Assembly: GCF_032397745.1 (NCBI RefSeq)
Contig: NZ_CP135921.1
Span: forward strand, 620,001-684,000
Source: Bradyrhizobium prioriisuperbiae
GTDB taxonomy: Bacteria > Pseudomonadota > Alphaproteobacteria > Rhizobiales > Xanthobacteraceae
Reading direction: 5' to 3'
Length of the DNA stretch: 64,000 nt
Shown: positions 5,721 to 53,965 of the stretch, in pieces
Position numbering within the stretch: position 1 is the first letter of the stretch
How the letters are laid out: every line of letters starts with the position of its first letter
Notes under the pieces: model-generated
Database searches by the model: none
What the model was told of the DNA's origin: nothing
The model's input: only the letters and a program-made list of their open reading frames with translations
Made by a program: the position numbers and the translations under genes

Positions 5721-6416
5721 ATGGACGACTGGATCGATTATTACGATTCCACGCATACGATTTATGTCAGCAAGCTGCACCGCGACCTGCACTTCAGCAT
5801 CATTGCCGACGATATTATCGGCTACATCTCCTCACCCGAGGCGGTGGTGCTCGACTATGCCTGCGGCGAAGCGACATCGGCTGGCCACGTCGCGGAACGG
5901 TGCGCACGGCTGATCTTGGCCGAGCCGGCGCCAGGGGTGCGTGGACGGCTGATTGCGCGATATGCCCGCGACCTCAACATCAAGGTCCGATCACTCGAGG
6001 ACTTGCGTTATCTCGACGACAGTTCGGTCGATCTCGCTGTCATGATCTCGGTGGCGCAGTACATGACTCCGGCTGAACTCGACACAGCTTTTGCGGCGGT
6101 GCGCCGCCTGCTGAAACCGAGCGGACGTCTCCTGCTCGGCGATATTCTGAGACCCGACGTTGGCGCGGTCACCGACGTGATGGCCCTGCTGCGGCTGGCG
6201 CGCGCTCATGGTTTCCTGAAAGATGCCCTGATTGGCCTTTTGCGCACATACCTGTCGGACTATTGGCAGTTGCGCACCAAGGTCGGGCTACAGCGCTACA
6301 GCGAGCAGGAGATCGTCGCCAAACTGGCGGCCGCCGGATTTTCCGCCACACGCGCCCACGTCAATGTCGGACACAACGCGGCGCGCATGACTTTGGTGGC
6401 CCGGCACGCATTCTGA
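5721..6416 (+). CDS. class I SAM-dependent methyltransferase
   Basis: The 231-residue protein has the Rossmann methyltransferase order: motif I VLDYACGEA near residue 43, an acidic strand-2 end in LAEPAP, motif-II/IV-like DSSVDLAVMISVAQYM near 101, and the post-motif LKPSGRLLLGD near 131. No membrane segment or signal peptide is visible. The Methyltransf_11/25 grouping is clear but the substrate is not. It is divergent from dps and is followed by its own terminator, so it looks monocistronic. Confidence 0.85.
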   Translation: MDDWIDYYDSTHTIYVSKLHRDLHFSIIADDIIGYISSPEAVVLDYACGEATSAGHVAERCARLILAEPAPGVRGRLIARYARDLNIKVRSLEDLRYLDDSSVDLAVMISVAQYMTPAELDTAFAAVRRLLKPSGRLLLGDILRPDVGAVTDVMALLRLARAHGFLKDALIGLLRTYLSDYWQLRTKVGLQRYSEQEIVAKLAAAGFSATRAHVNVGHNAARMTLVARHAF

Positions 6417-6417
6417 C

Positions 6418-6447
6418 GCCCGCAAACGCAGGTGCTTGCGGGCTTTT
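6418..6447 (+). terminator. intrinsic terminator after the methyltransferase gene
   Basis: GCCCGCAA (6418-6425) pairs perfectly with TTGCGGGC (6436-6443) and is followed by TTTT. It begins directly after the TGA of the methyltransferase gene. Confidence 0.85.
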
Positions 6448-6465
6448 CCACCGCCCCGTGCGACG

Positions 6466-6480
6466 TTAACTATATCTTAA
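6466..6480 (+). promoter_or_regulatory. perfect CtrA-type box overlapping a -10-like hexamer
   Basis: The sequence is TTAA-N7-TTAA exactly (TTAACTATATCTTAA), the consensus of the alphaproteobacterial cell-cycle regulator CtrA. The spacer contains CTATAT, which resembles the alphaproteobacterial -10 element. It lies 45 bp upstream of the tRNA-Cys-like element and downstream of a terminator, so it could only serve that element or carB. Occupancy by CtrA is inference. Confidence 0.5.
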
Positions 6481-6524
6481 GGATAAGCGTGATTTGCCGC
6501 ACGCTCCGGCGTTATCTTGACCTT

Positions 6525-6601
6525 GGCCCGGTGGCGGAAGCGTCGACGCGGGGGCTGTGCAAAGCCTCATATCCTGGTTTCGAACCCAGGCCGGGCCTCC
6601 A
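6525..6601 (+). tRNA. tRNA-Cys(GCA)-like element with three abnormal loops (possible pseudo-tRNA or tRNA mimic)
   Basis: The 77-nt sequence folds into a cloverleaf with a perfect 7-bp acceptor stem (6525-6531 with 6591-6597), a 3-bp D stem GCG/CGC, a 5-bp anticodon stem (6551-6555 with 6564-6568, one G-U pair) and a perfect 5-bp T stem (6573-6577 with 6586-6590). U73 and an encoded CCA follow. U73 and the trinucleotide GCA in the anticodon loop are cysteine identity elements. The abnormal parts are an 8-nt anticodon loop TGTGCAAA, an 8-nt T loop TTTCGAAC, and a D loop lacking the invariant GG pair. The intact stems argue against a random relic. The loops argue against an ordinary elongator tRNA. 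Confidence 0.55.
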
Positions 6602-6749
6602 ATTTCCTCCTCAAAGCCGCCACGGCCCTTGGCCTGCCCGCTTAGAGAGCAAAATCCCCGGTTGATGAGGGTTTTAATCCCCTTCCCCGCTCCGGGAATC
6701 TGGTCTAAAGACACCCCCGCGCAAGGCACTTTCTTGGCGCTCGGCCAGA

Positions 6750-6777
6750 GGACGCGCGACAGGCGCGCCCTTTTTTT
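6750..6777 (+). terminator. intrinsic terminator downstream of the tRNA-like element
   Basis: CGCGC (6753-6757) pairs with GCGCG (6763-6767). Flanking G-C pairs follow across one mismatch, and then comes a run of seven T. No protein gene ends here, so it most likely ends the transcript carrying the tRNA-like element, which would be about 300 nt. Confidence 0.7.
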
Positions 6778-6852
6778 GTGCCTAGTTTCCTGCCCGCCTG
6801 AAAGCGCGGTGGCTTTGGATCGAGTCGCAATCGCGCTTTATCTTATTGTTTG

Positions 6853-6896
6853 AGCATGATTTTTTCGGAAAATCGGTCCTCTTTCCGGATCATGCT
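6853..6896. repeat. dispersed palindromic repeat upstream of carB
   Basis: Outer arms AGCATGAT / ATCATGCT (6853-6860 and 6889-6896) and inner arms CGGAAA / TTTCCG enclose a short loop. I recognise this GCATGAT...TTTCCGGATCATGC pattern as an intergenic palindrome common in Bradyrhizobium-type genomes. It ends 13 bp before the carB start codon. Copy number needs a genome-wide search. Confidence 0.7.
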
Positions 6897-6909
6897 GGTG
6901 TGAGACGCG

Positions 6910-9900
6910 ATGCCCAAACGAACCGACATATCGACCATCCTGATCATCGGCGCCGGCCCCATTGTGATCGGCCAGGCCTGCGAATTCGATTATTCCGGGA
7001 CCCAAGCGGTCAAGACGCTGAAGGAAGAGGGCTACCGCATCGTCCTGGTCAATTCCAATCCGGCGACCATCATGACCGATCCGGAGCTGGCTGATGCGAC
7101 CTATATCGAGCCGATCACACCCGAGATCGTCGCCAAAATCATCGAAAAGGAGCGCAATGTCATCCCCGGCGGCTTCGCGCTGCTGCCGACCATGGGCGGC
7201 CAGACCGCACTGAACTGCGCGCTGTCGCTGCGCAAACAGGGCACGCTGGAGAAGTTCAACATCGAGATGATCGGCGCCACCGCCGACGCCATCGACAAGG
7301 CCGAGGACCGCGGCCGGTTCCGTGAGGCCATGACCAAGATCGGGCTCGAGACACCGCGCTCGATCCAGACCAAGACGCTGCCGGATGCTCTGCGTGCGCT
7401 GGACCAGATCGGCCTGCCGGCGATCATTCGCCCGTCGTTCACGATGGGCGGCACCGGCGGCGGCATCGCCTACACCAAAGCGGAGTTCATCGAGATCGTC
7501 GAGCGTGGCATCGACGCCTCGCCCACAAGCGAGGTGTTGATCGAGGAATCCGTGCTCGGCTGGAAAGAGTTCGAGATGGAGGTGGTCCGCGACAAGAAGG
7601 ACAACTGCATCATCGTCTGCTCCATCGAGAACCTCGACCCGATGGGCGTGCACACCGGTGACTCGATCACGGTGGCGCCGGCGCTGACCCTGACCGACAA
7701 GGAATACCAGATCATGCGCGACGCATCGCTTGCGGTGCTGCGCGAAATCGGCGTCGAGACCGGCGGATCGAACGTACAGTTCGGCGTCAATCCGGCCGAC
7801 GGACGCATGGTCGTGATCGAAATGAATCCGAGGGTGTCGCGCTCGTCGGCGCTGGCCTCCAAAGCCACCGGCTTTCCAATCGCCAAGGTCGCCGCCAAGC
7901 TTGCGGTTGGCTATACCCTCGACGAAATCGCCAACGACATCACCGGCGGTGCCACGCCGGCATCGTTCGAGCCGACGATCGATTACGTCGTCACCAAAAT
8001 CCCGCGCTTCGCGTTCGAAAAATTTCCCGGTGCGAGCCACACCCTGACCACCTCGATGAAGTCGGTCGGCGAAGTGATGGCGATCGGCCGCACCTTCCAG
8101 GAAAGCCTGCAGAAGGCGCTACGCGGGCTTGAGACCGGCCTCACCGGCCTCGACGAGATCGAAATCGACGGGCTCGGCAAGGGCGACGACAAGAATGCGA
8201 TCCGCGCCGCGCTCGGCACGCCGACGCCGAACCGGCTGCTGCAAGTCGCCCAGGCGATGCGGCTCGGATGGTCGAACGACGAAATCTTCGTATCCTGCAA
8301 GATCGATCCATGGTTCCTCGCCGAAATTCGCGGCATCGTGGAAATCGAAACCAAGGTCCGCGCGCACGGCCTGCCCGGCAACGCCTTCGCCATGCGCTCG
8401 CTCAAGAGCATGGGCTTCTCGGACTCTCGCCTTGCGGTGCTGTCGGGCAAGACCGAGGCCGAAGTGAAGTCGCTGCGACGAACGCTCGGGGTGCGCCCGG
8501 CGTTCAAGCGGATCGACACCTGCGCGGCGGAGTTTGCCTCGCCCACCGCCTATATGTACTCGACCTACGAGACGCCGTTCGCAGGCGCAGTGGCCGACGA
8601 GAGCGCGCCTTCGTCCAAGAAGAAGGTCATTATCCTGGGTGGTGGCCCAAACCGGATCGGCCAGGGGATCGAATTCGACTATTGTTGCTGTCATGCCTGC
8701 TTCGCGCTGCACGACGCCGGCTTCGAAACCATCATGATCAACTGCAATCCGGAGACCGTGTCGACCGATTACGACACCGCCGACCGCCTGTATTTCGAAC
8801 CGCTGACCGCGGAAGACGTGCTTGAGATCATCGACACCGAGCGCTCCAACGGCACGCTGCACGGCGTCATCGTGCAGTTCGGCGGCCAGACCCCGCTCAA
8901 GCTCGCGCGGGCGCTGGAAGAGGCCAAGGTGCCGATCCTCGGCACCTCGCCGGACGCGATCGATCTTGCCGAGGACCGCGACCGCTTCAAGCGCATCCTC
9001 GACAAGTTGCATCTGAAGCAACCGAAGAATGGCATCGCCTATTCGGTCGAACAGGCACGACTGGTAGCGAGCGACCTGGATTTCCCGCTGGTGGTGCGGC
9101 CGTCCTATGTACTCGGCGGTCGCGCCATGCAGATCATCCGCGAGGAAGGCCAGCTCGGTGACTACCTGCTCGGCACCTTGCCGGAGCTCGTGCCCGCCGA
9201 CGTCAAGGCGCGCTATCCCAACGACAAGACCGGGCAGATCAACACGGTGCTCGGCAAGAACCCGCTGCTGTTCGACCGCTATCTGTCGGACGCGATCGAG
9301 ATCGACGTCGACTGCCTGTGCGACGGCAAGGATACCTTCATCGCCGGCATCATGGAGCACATCGAGGAAGCGGGCATCCACTCCGGCGACTCCGCCTGCT
9401 CGCTGCCGCCGCACTCGCTCGACCCCGCCACTATCGCGGAGCTCGAACGGCAGACCCGCGAACTGGCGCTCGGACTCGACGTGGTCGGACTGATGAACGT
9501 GCAGTACGCCATCAAGGACGGCGAGATCTACGTGCTCGAGGTCAATCCGCGCGCCTCGCGTACGGTGCCGTTCGTCGCCAAGGTGGTCGGCATGCCGGTC
9601 GCGAAGATCGCCTCGCGCATCATGGCCGGCGAAAAGCTCGCAGACTTCAAGCTCAAGCCCGCCAGGCTCAGCCATGTCGGCGTCAAGGAATCGGTGTTTC
9701 CGTTCGCGCGTTTCCCCGGCGTCGACACCGTGCTCGGTCCTGAAATGCGGTCGACCGGCGAGGTCATGGGCCTCGACCAGTCGTTCGCGGTGGCGTTCGC
9801 CAAGAGCCAGCTCGGCGGCGGCACGCGGGTGCCGCGCTCCGGAACGGTCTTCGTCTCGGTGCGGGAAACCGACAAAACCCGCATTCTTGATGCGGTCCGG

Positions 9901-10239
9901 CTGCTGGCCGCCGCGGGCTTCAAGGTCATGGCCACCTCGGGCACGCAACGGTTTCTGGCCGACAACGGCGTGCCGGCCGAGAAAGTGAACAAAGTGCTGG
10001 AAGGTCGGCCACATATCGTCGACGCCATTACCAATGGCGACGTCCAGTTGGTCTTCAACACCACCGAAGGCCCGCAGGCGCTGGCCGACAGCCGGTCGCT
10101 GAGACGAGCTGCCCTCTTGCATAAAGTACCGTACTACACCACTCTTTCCGGTGCCGTGGCGGCCGCGCAGGGGATCCGGGCCTATCTGGGCGGGGATCTC
10201 GAGGTTCGCACGCTGCAGAGCTATTCTTCGGATCTCTAA
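6910..10239 (+). CDS. carB: carbamoyl-phosphate synthase large subunit
   Basis: The 1109-residue protein has the duplicated CPSase large-chain layout. The first ATP-grasp half opens with [19 protein letters not shown] and the second with [20 protein letters not shown] near residue 577. An oligomerisation region lies between them, and a C-terminal MGS-like allosteric domain follows [14 protein letters not shown]. It makes carbamoyl phosphate from bicarbonate, two ATP and the ammonia supplied by CarA. It is slightly longer than the E. coli protein, as is usual in Rhizobiales. The ribosome-binding site is weak and a dispersed palindrome abuts it. Over 180 bp separate its TAA from greA. Confidence 0.98.
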
Positions 10240-53247: not shown

Positions 53248-53321
53248 GGCTCTTCCTTGTTAGGACCAGAATCAGGGCACACGGGCCATCAGCCGCGCGT
53301 GAACGCAGCTGTCGTTTCCCG

Positions 53322-53473
53322 TTCTCTTTCATCCGGACTTTAACCGTCGGCTTCGGAATCACACCGAATCTGCTGACCTCACCAGCTTCCCCGAAGGGCA
53401 ACCGGTGAGCGCTCGCGGGCTTAGGCCACAGAGACCCTTACCGCCGGTGGGGACTTTCACCCCGCCCTGAGAA
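53322..53473 (-). promoter_or_regulatory. FMN riboswitch (RFN element)
   Basis: The minus strand shows the RFN core: GGGCGGGGTGAAAGTCCCC then ACCGGCGGTAAGGG, a central multi-branched region with GAAGCTGGTGAG, and the closing segment GATTCCGAAGCCGACGG..AGTCCGGATGAAAGAGAACG. It lies 75 nt before the ribH2 ATG. No terminator hairpin with a T-run lies between the element and the gene, so control may be on translation. Confidence 0.95.
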
Positions 53474-53965
53474 CATGACCGCCCGGAATGGACAGCCAAG
53501 GCAAATTATGGAGAACCGCCGGGGCATGCGCAAGCCGCCCCGGGAGCTACAGGGCTGCATATCCGGCATGTCCGAAGGCTCATCCCAGTCGCCCAAGGAG
53601 GTCCCAGACCCACTCTCCAAGGCGCTCCCAAGGCGATTTCCCAACCGGCACAGACTCGCGACACGGGAAAACCGCTCCCGCGACTCGCGCCCCGCGAATC
53701 CGATTCCGTTTTGTTCTCATGAACCACGACGATGAGTTGTGGACGACCCGGCCTTTGCCTGTGGACGGGATTCACCCCCGGTTGCGCCCCTGCCGCAAAT
53801 CACTGATCAATTCGTCAGCGCAGGTTGCCTTGCTGGGCAGCACCCCGATCAGGATCTGACTCGTGGTGTGCAAATACGGGCAACATGTTTGCGACATCAA
53901 TCGCGCGACATCCGGCGTCTCGTATTCGGCGTGCGCATCATCGGCACAAGGCAGGGCGCAACAGC
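53474..53965. other. 492-bp intergenic region without a supported gene
   Basis: The region must hold the ribH2 promoter and the YbjN promoter. Short open frames on both strands have atypical composition, no ribosome-binding sites and no family resemblance. I do not call any of them. Two TGTGGAC motifs at 53733 and 53760 are too far from a DnaA box to be named. Confidence 0.5.

Follow-up and report, generated by a model that had tools for sequence, protein, structure and literature searches.

The window analysed here, a stretch of 64,000 nucleotides from Bradyrhizobium prioriisuperbiae, carries on its plus strand a 77-nt gene for a tRNA-Cys-like RNA (Table 1). Comparison with related genomes indicates that this element is real and not a relic, that it is kept in many relatives of Bradyrhizobium and that its cloverleaf is under selection. 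As judged from the same alignments, U73 and GCA, the two chief marks of cysteine identity, have been retained, while the 7-nt anticodon loop is mostly lost, as are U33 in part and G18G19 for the most part. This spare tRNA-Cys probably works outside the ribosome.

Table 1. Coordinates of the tRNA-Cys-like gene, its parts and its neighbours in the window.
Feature	Position	Strand	Details	Basis
tRNA-Cys-like RNA gene	6525–6601	+	acceptor, D, anticodon and T stems of 7, 3, 6 and 5 bp; T73; CCA encoded	sequence, covariation, orthologues
Anticodon arm	6551–6568	+	6-bp stem, 6551–6556 with 6563–6568; 6-nt loop GTGCAA, 6557–6562, containing GCA	covariation and fold
D loop region	6538–6546	+	G18G19 guanine pair absent	sequence
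T loop TTTCGAAC	6578–6585	+	8 nt, private to the window genome	comparison (all but one of the 103 distinct sequences have 7 nt)
-10-like box TATCTT	6513–6518	+	-12 to -7; predicted start is G1 (6525)	flank comparison
Upstream TTAA motifs	6466–6469 and 6478–6481	+		flank comparison
Methyltransferase (PF08241), neighbour outside the RNA	5721–6416	+		
carB, carbamoyl-phosphate synthase large subunit, neighbour	6910–10239	+		

The sequence and fold of the element bear out most of what a preliminary description had read from it, namely the position and strand of the element, its paired arms, T73 (U73), the encoded CCA, the GCA in the anticodon loop and a D loop without GG. Two standard finders miss or mislabel genes of this kind. 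ARAGORN passed over the element and reported a tRNA-His as the sole tRNA of the window, while for 28 of the first 30 loci it gave the label 'tRNA-??? (gc)'. The Rfam model RF00005 did not detect the element either at its gathering score (29 bits) or at E<=1 across the whole genome, where it found 45 tRNAs above the cut-off and two weak hits; none of six elements from the loci of six relatives reached the gathering score. The folding energy of the window element alone is unremarkable (z of -1.5; an equal or lower value in 15 of 200 shuffles), and the case against chance is comparative.

When 296 genomes of the same family, including the window's own, were searched at the DNA level, 140 of them gave a match at E<=0.001, covering 26 of 47 genera. 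The five matches with the least support (E about 1e-4, in genera g23 and g35) may be ordinary tRNA-Cys genes, and distant copies escape such a search. Identity was 75–90% among the matches listed, the own genome apart. A pattern search of named genomes, with the acceptor, the start of the D arm and the T arm fixed and the anticodon arm left free, retrieved at least 120 stretches; among the matches listed were Bradyrhizobium, Afipia, Tardiphaga, Nitrobacter, Rhodopseudomonas, Pseudolabrys, Pseudorhodoplanes and others. The same pattern had no match in viral_contigs, and a viral origin was therefore rejected. Altogether 150 elements were analysed (30 from the DNA search, 40 from larger loci and 80 listed among the at least 120 pattern matches), which include repeats of some genes and reduce to 130 distinct flanks and 103 distinct sequences. 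Model R1 was also run on carB starts from genomes that had given no match in the DNA search, obtained for 14 of 15 such genomes. It found one divergent element (L318, 88.5 bits) with a compensated pair in the acceptor (GGCTCGG/CCGAGCC), a perfect 6-bp anticodon stem and the loop GTGCAT; the L318 sequence is absent from the model, making this an out-of-sample find. The other 13 carB starts had no element within the reach of about 1.5 kb upstream at most.

We then assessed the stems over the 103 distinct sequences, which have a cloverleaf with a 7-bp acceptor and a 5-bp T stem as in RF00005. Standard pairs occupy 98.2% of 2161 pair cells and both sides have changed in 111 pair cells, and neither value was reached in any of 500 shuffles; double changes occur at 8 of 21 pairs, which was equalled in 2 of 500 shuffles. 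The shuffles ignore relatedness. Sliding one partner by a single column, a control that allows for relatedness, leaves just 45–56% paired. The alignment underlying model R1 (A2) gives a higher figure of 99.5%, which is flattering, because A2 was assembled by hand from 47 of the 103 distinct sequences, with several of the oddest anticodon arms omitted. In 109 non-redundant flanks, conservation is about 2.0 bits per column over the first 14 columns of the element and 1.7 bits per column over the last 28, compared with 0.23 and 0.15 bits in the flanks; the way in which the sequences were selected partly determines the values of the end columns, those of the flanks being free of it. The stems of these orthologues are thus compensated and do not show random substitutions, which lends strong support to the selection on a tRNA-like shape that had been proposed for the window element.

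The anticodon arm differs from the form first described, in which TGTGCAAA was read as an 8-nt loop. The outer letters of TGTGCAAA make up a sixth, covarying stem pair that closes the 6-nt loop GTGCAA. This innermost pair is GC in 36 of the 103 sequences, CG in 21, AU in 15, UA in 12, UG in 4 and GU in 1, with 12 unpaired and 2 gapped, and five of the six anticodon-stem pairs show double changes. The usual anticodon arm therefore consists of six base pairs closing a loop of 6 nt. Predicted folds give loops of 6 nt in 73 sequences, 7 nt in 10, 8 nt in 7, 5 nt in 5, 4 nt in 6 and 3 nt in 2. As for the 8-nt T loop, it is indeed present in the window but is not a general feature of these RNAs.

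With regard to cysteine identity, U73 and a GCA anticodon, which the window RNA has, are major determinants in Escherichia coli and yeast, and G15-G48 is a strong determinant in E. coli (PMC9976931). The window element has A15-U48 in place of this core pair. Positions 15 and 48 go together across the 103 sequences (A-U in 79, G-G in 11, G-C in 7 and others in 6). GCA is retained in the loop of 101 sequences, the exceptions being L078 (GAA) and L080 (CGACC), and 69 of the 70 elements from the DNA search end in TCCA. Among the pattern matches listed, whose anticodon arm was left free, all 63 distinct sequences have GCA and 56 have U before it. The marks of a decoding tRNA-Cys have fared differently: in the window the 7-nt loop with U33 is replaced by the 6-nt loop and G18G19 is missing, 16 of the 101 sequences with GCA no longer have U33, and a simple text test finds no GG in the D loop of 82 of the 103 sequences. 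These marks are not gone everywhere, however, since the letter before GCA is U in 85 of 101 sequences and GG is found in 21 of 103.

The upstream flank carries a conserved -10 box, whose spacing predicts a transcription start at G1. A at -11 together with T at -7 was found in 76 of 109 non-redundant flanks, as against 48 at the next best place, which is an upstream TTAA motif, and a median of 3; a pyrimidine precedes the gene at -1 in 108 of them, and TGG occurs at -35 in 41. Judged by these flanks, the predicted start differs from that of a normal tRNA-Cys gene: among 28 normal genes, one has A-11/T-7 and six have a pyrimidine at -1. A scan of 6380–6930 with the strict sigma-70 consensus found no promoter. 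Further upstream, 54 of 104 flanks contain the palindrome-like motif TTANNNNTAA, most often near -58, against a mean of 0.95 after shuffling; it occurs in none of the 28 normal tRNA-Cys genes. The flank in the window has TTAA at -59, and the full TTANNNNTAA motif is absent.

A normal tRNA-Cys elsewhere in the genome had been anticipated, and tRNA-Cys(GCA) was indeed found at G000:C1:6734946 (locus L055). It adjoins tRNA-Asn and is one of the 45 RF00005 tRNAs; ARAGORN found no further tRNA-Cys gene in the 47 loci of the host genome with an RF00005 hit. Normal tRNA-Cys genes were found in 28 of 30 genomes tested (24 of 25 in the same family), and in 11 of these 25 same-family genomes they are 97–100% identical to that of the window genome. 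In six other genomes from five genera, the normal tRNA-Cys is identical to that of the window genome, whereas the odd element is 81–90% identical; these comparisons indicate that the normal gene evolves more slowly than the odd one. Both share the acceptor start GGCC, a D stem of GTGGCGGA..ACGC, U73, GCA and CCA within the same genomes, whereas a 5-bp anticodon stem, the loop YTGCAAA, G18G19 and, as seen by eye, a -10-like box located farther upstream characterize the canonical tRNA-Cys(GCA). Each of ten genomes has one strong CysRS hit, and a dedicated second CysRS was found in none of the ten. As a candidate partner family, PF14028 gave no hits in eight genomes, where its controls were likewise silent.

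The gene neighbourhood was analysed in 40 larger loci, with hardly a genus repeated among the first 20. In 31 of the 40 the element is followed by carB on the same strand, within 2 kb in 30 and at about 4 kb in one; the locus upstream of carB is where the preliminary description had proposed to look for covarying stems. Of the 31 carB-linked loci, 28 have greA and 19 have carA within the stretch examined, and 26 have the methyltransferase on the same strand within 2 kb upstream. Its absence from the close upstream region in the remaining five led us to reject it as an obligate partner. No carB hit was found in the stretch examined near the further same-family copies L100, L101, L111, L113 and L114. 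A terminator-like hairpin with seven T is located at 6753–6777, between the element and carB, and inspection of L021 by eye shows a similar one ahead of carB; the hairpin of the window could be the terminator of the RNA or a carB attenuator. Another terminator-like match (6495–6511) overlaps the predicted promoter, the chance expectation being 0.9 per region. In addition, an 8-bp hairpin with four T that was noticed by eye at 6418–6447, just past the methyltransferase stop, and which the scan does not list, suggests that the methyltransferase message ends before the tRNA-like gene.

Related RNAs are also found outside the family. Of 397 genomes of the order (some of the same family), 367 match the model, mostly at scores of ordinary tRNA-Cys, and a strict pattern with G before UGCA matches 21 of them (17 of the same family, three of f21 and one of f6), a pattern that is blind to the window's own copy and to the forms in f26 and f32. 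Among the higher-scoring loci examined, the elements of f6 and f26 have the loop GTGCAA, with other acceptor stems in f6 and in one f26 locus; that of f21 has the 7-nt loop GTGCAAA and that of f38 an ordinary loop. Family f32 has a related RNA with a covarying stem and a conserved loop GGGAAC that contains no GCA (loci L252, L253, L255–L259, L261, L262, L270, L271, L274 and L275), which adjoins gyrA in L261, the one annotated f32 locus. As the neighbours named in the annotated loci differ across these other families, the gene should act in trans. The f32 loop also implies that cysteine charging is not the common requirement there, and no other result speaks as strongly against a general rule of cysteine charging.

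Among known systems, the non-proteinogenic tRNA-Gly isoacceptor of Staphylococcus aureus, which serves the pentaglycine bridge of the cell wall, offers a parallel for the odd tRNA-Cys. According to the summaries of that work, it is an extra isoacceptor with changed D and T loops that is charged by the ordinary synthetase and is weakly recognized by EF-Tu (Giannouli 2009, via PMC8007984 and PMC4810233). Both RNAs would be extra isoacceptors beside normal ones with changes in the D and T loops, charging of the odd Cys RNA being predicted; they differ in the amino acid, which is predicted to be cysteine here, and in the anticodon arm, which has been rebuilt here with a 6-bp stem and a 6-nt loop. 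The selC* tRNA-Cys, as summarized from Mukai 2017 in PMC7609411, has an 8/4 acceptor-T arm, a long variable arm and a linked selB*, in some cases with cysS*. It likewise is a second, non-standard tRNA-Cys with U73 and a GCA (or, in selC*, UCA) anticodon. The odd element differs from selC* in architecture, however, with 7/5 arms and a short variable loop, and no second CysRS was found in any of the ten genomes.

The explanation that we favour, to which we would give a little under an even chance, is that a tRNA-Cys gene was duplicated and one copy kept as a tRNA that does not decode; the ordinary CysRS would charge it, the ribosome would exclude it, and it would serve as a cysteine donor or sensor. 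RNA polymerase would start at G1, and with such a start the RNA would need little or no 5' trimming. The single CysRS of the genome would then charge it with cysteine, the ribosome, and perhaps EF-Tu, would reject it, and the cysteine would become available to an enzyme outside translation, or else the ratio of charged to uncharged RNA would report on cysteine. The main charging marks kept, the decoding marks mostly lost, a -10 box of its own and a normal copy elsewhere form the pattern expected of a tRNA diverted from translation. Of the three identities suggested in the preliminary description, a non-canonical cysteine tRNA is the best. A fuller version seems doubtful as a whole: a dedicated cysteine donor of Bradyrhizobium and its relatives, leaderless with a 5' triphosphate, served by the ordinary CysRS, barred from the ribosome by its 6-bp/6-nt arm, feeding cysteinyl transfer and expressed from its own regulated promoter.

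A regulatory RNA in tRNA form, which we regard as unlikely yet worth weighing, would use its acceptor and T half for stability and CCA-end handling and its variable anticodon hairpin to bind a protein or an RNA. Candidate partners would be CysRS, for which the RNA could act as a sensor or a sponge, an enzyme of tRNA or other modification, or some target RNA. The distribution of TTANNNNTAA, frequent before the odd genes and absent from the normal ones, hints at regulation, and the GGGAAC that replaces the loop in f32 fits as well, but the retention of GCA while U33 and loop size vary is what recognition by CysRS predicts. We consider it improbable that the RNA decodes, whether by reading UGC/UGU under special conditions or by shifting frame. 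GCA and, in most sequences, the U before it are present, and opening of the inner pair, which 12 of 103 sequences do not form, would give an 8-nt loop; that pair, however, covaries through six standard pair types, the losses of U33 and of the D-loop GG point the other way, and a normal tRNA-Cys is available in nearly all genomes tested. The frameshifting tRNA that had been suggested is disfavoured also by a loop that is mostly 6 nt in predicted folds but can be as short as 3 or as long as 8 nt.

It is very unlikely that the element acts in cis on carB, as a tRNA-like processing site or as a leader of the carB message. The frequent linkage to carB and the hairpin with seven T lying between the two would be in keeping with such a role, but it is disfavoured because similar elements of f6, f21, f26, f32 and f38 adjoin other genes, and also by the five same-family copies with no carB hit in the stretch examined and by the element's own -10 box. 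A decaying tRNA-Cys pseudogene, for which the variable loops and the loss of letters typical of normal tRNAs might speak, is scarcely credible in view of the compensated stems and the sharp drop of conservation at both ends. Covariation over the 103 distinct sequences led us to reject it for the family; in the window genome alone, some slight doubt persists on account of its private 8-nt T loop.

These RNAs constitute a natural experiment that splits the design of a tRNA, with charging marks kept and decoding marks lost, in genomes including Bradyrhizobium, Rhodopseudomonas, Nitrobacter and Afipia. If charged, they would point to an unrecognized role for activated cysteine beyond protein synthesis and would provide a genetic handle to find that role. 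A literature search over titles and the starts of abstracts, with most subscription papers and preprints outside its coverage, retrieved no report of the RNA. In the main text of two papers on B. japonicum (PMC5082802 and PMC4842269), the word 'tRNA' is absent and 'carb' appears solely as part of other words.

Several other RNAs were observed alongside. In loci of genus g20, which includes Nitrobacter among its named genomes, a second odd tRNA that is Gly-like and by eye has a 6-nt loop TTCCAG lies on the opposite strand about 100–350 nt from the odd Cys element (L018:1680-1752, L021:1681-1753 and others), and a 93% identical copy is found at L111:6822-6892 near the Cys element of L111. In the host genome, ARAGORN assigns G000:C1:2215488-2215561 (L074) to tRNA-Ser with anticodon ACT (Rfam, 48.5 bits), and it misses two tRNA-like sequences that score weakly, at about 24 bits, namely G000:C1:2708418-2708482 and 6947669-6947733 (L076 and L077). 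The window itself also contains an FMN riboswitch on the minus strand at 53317–53478 (Rfam, 114.6 bits).
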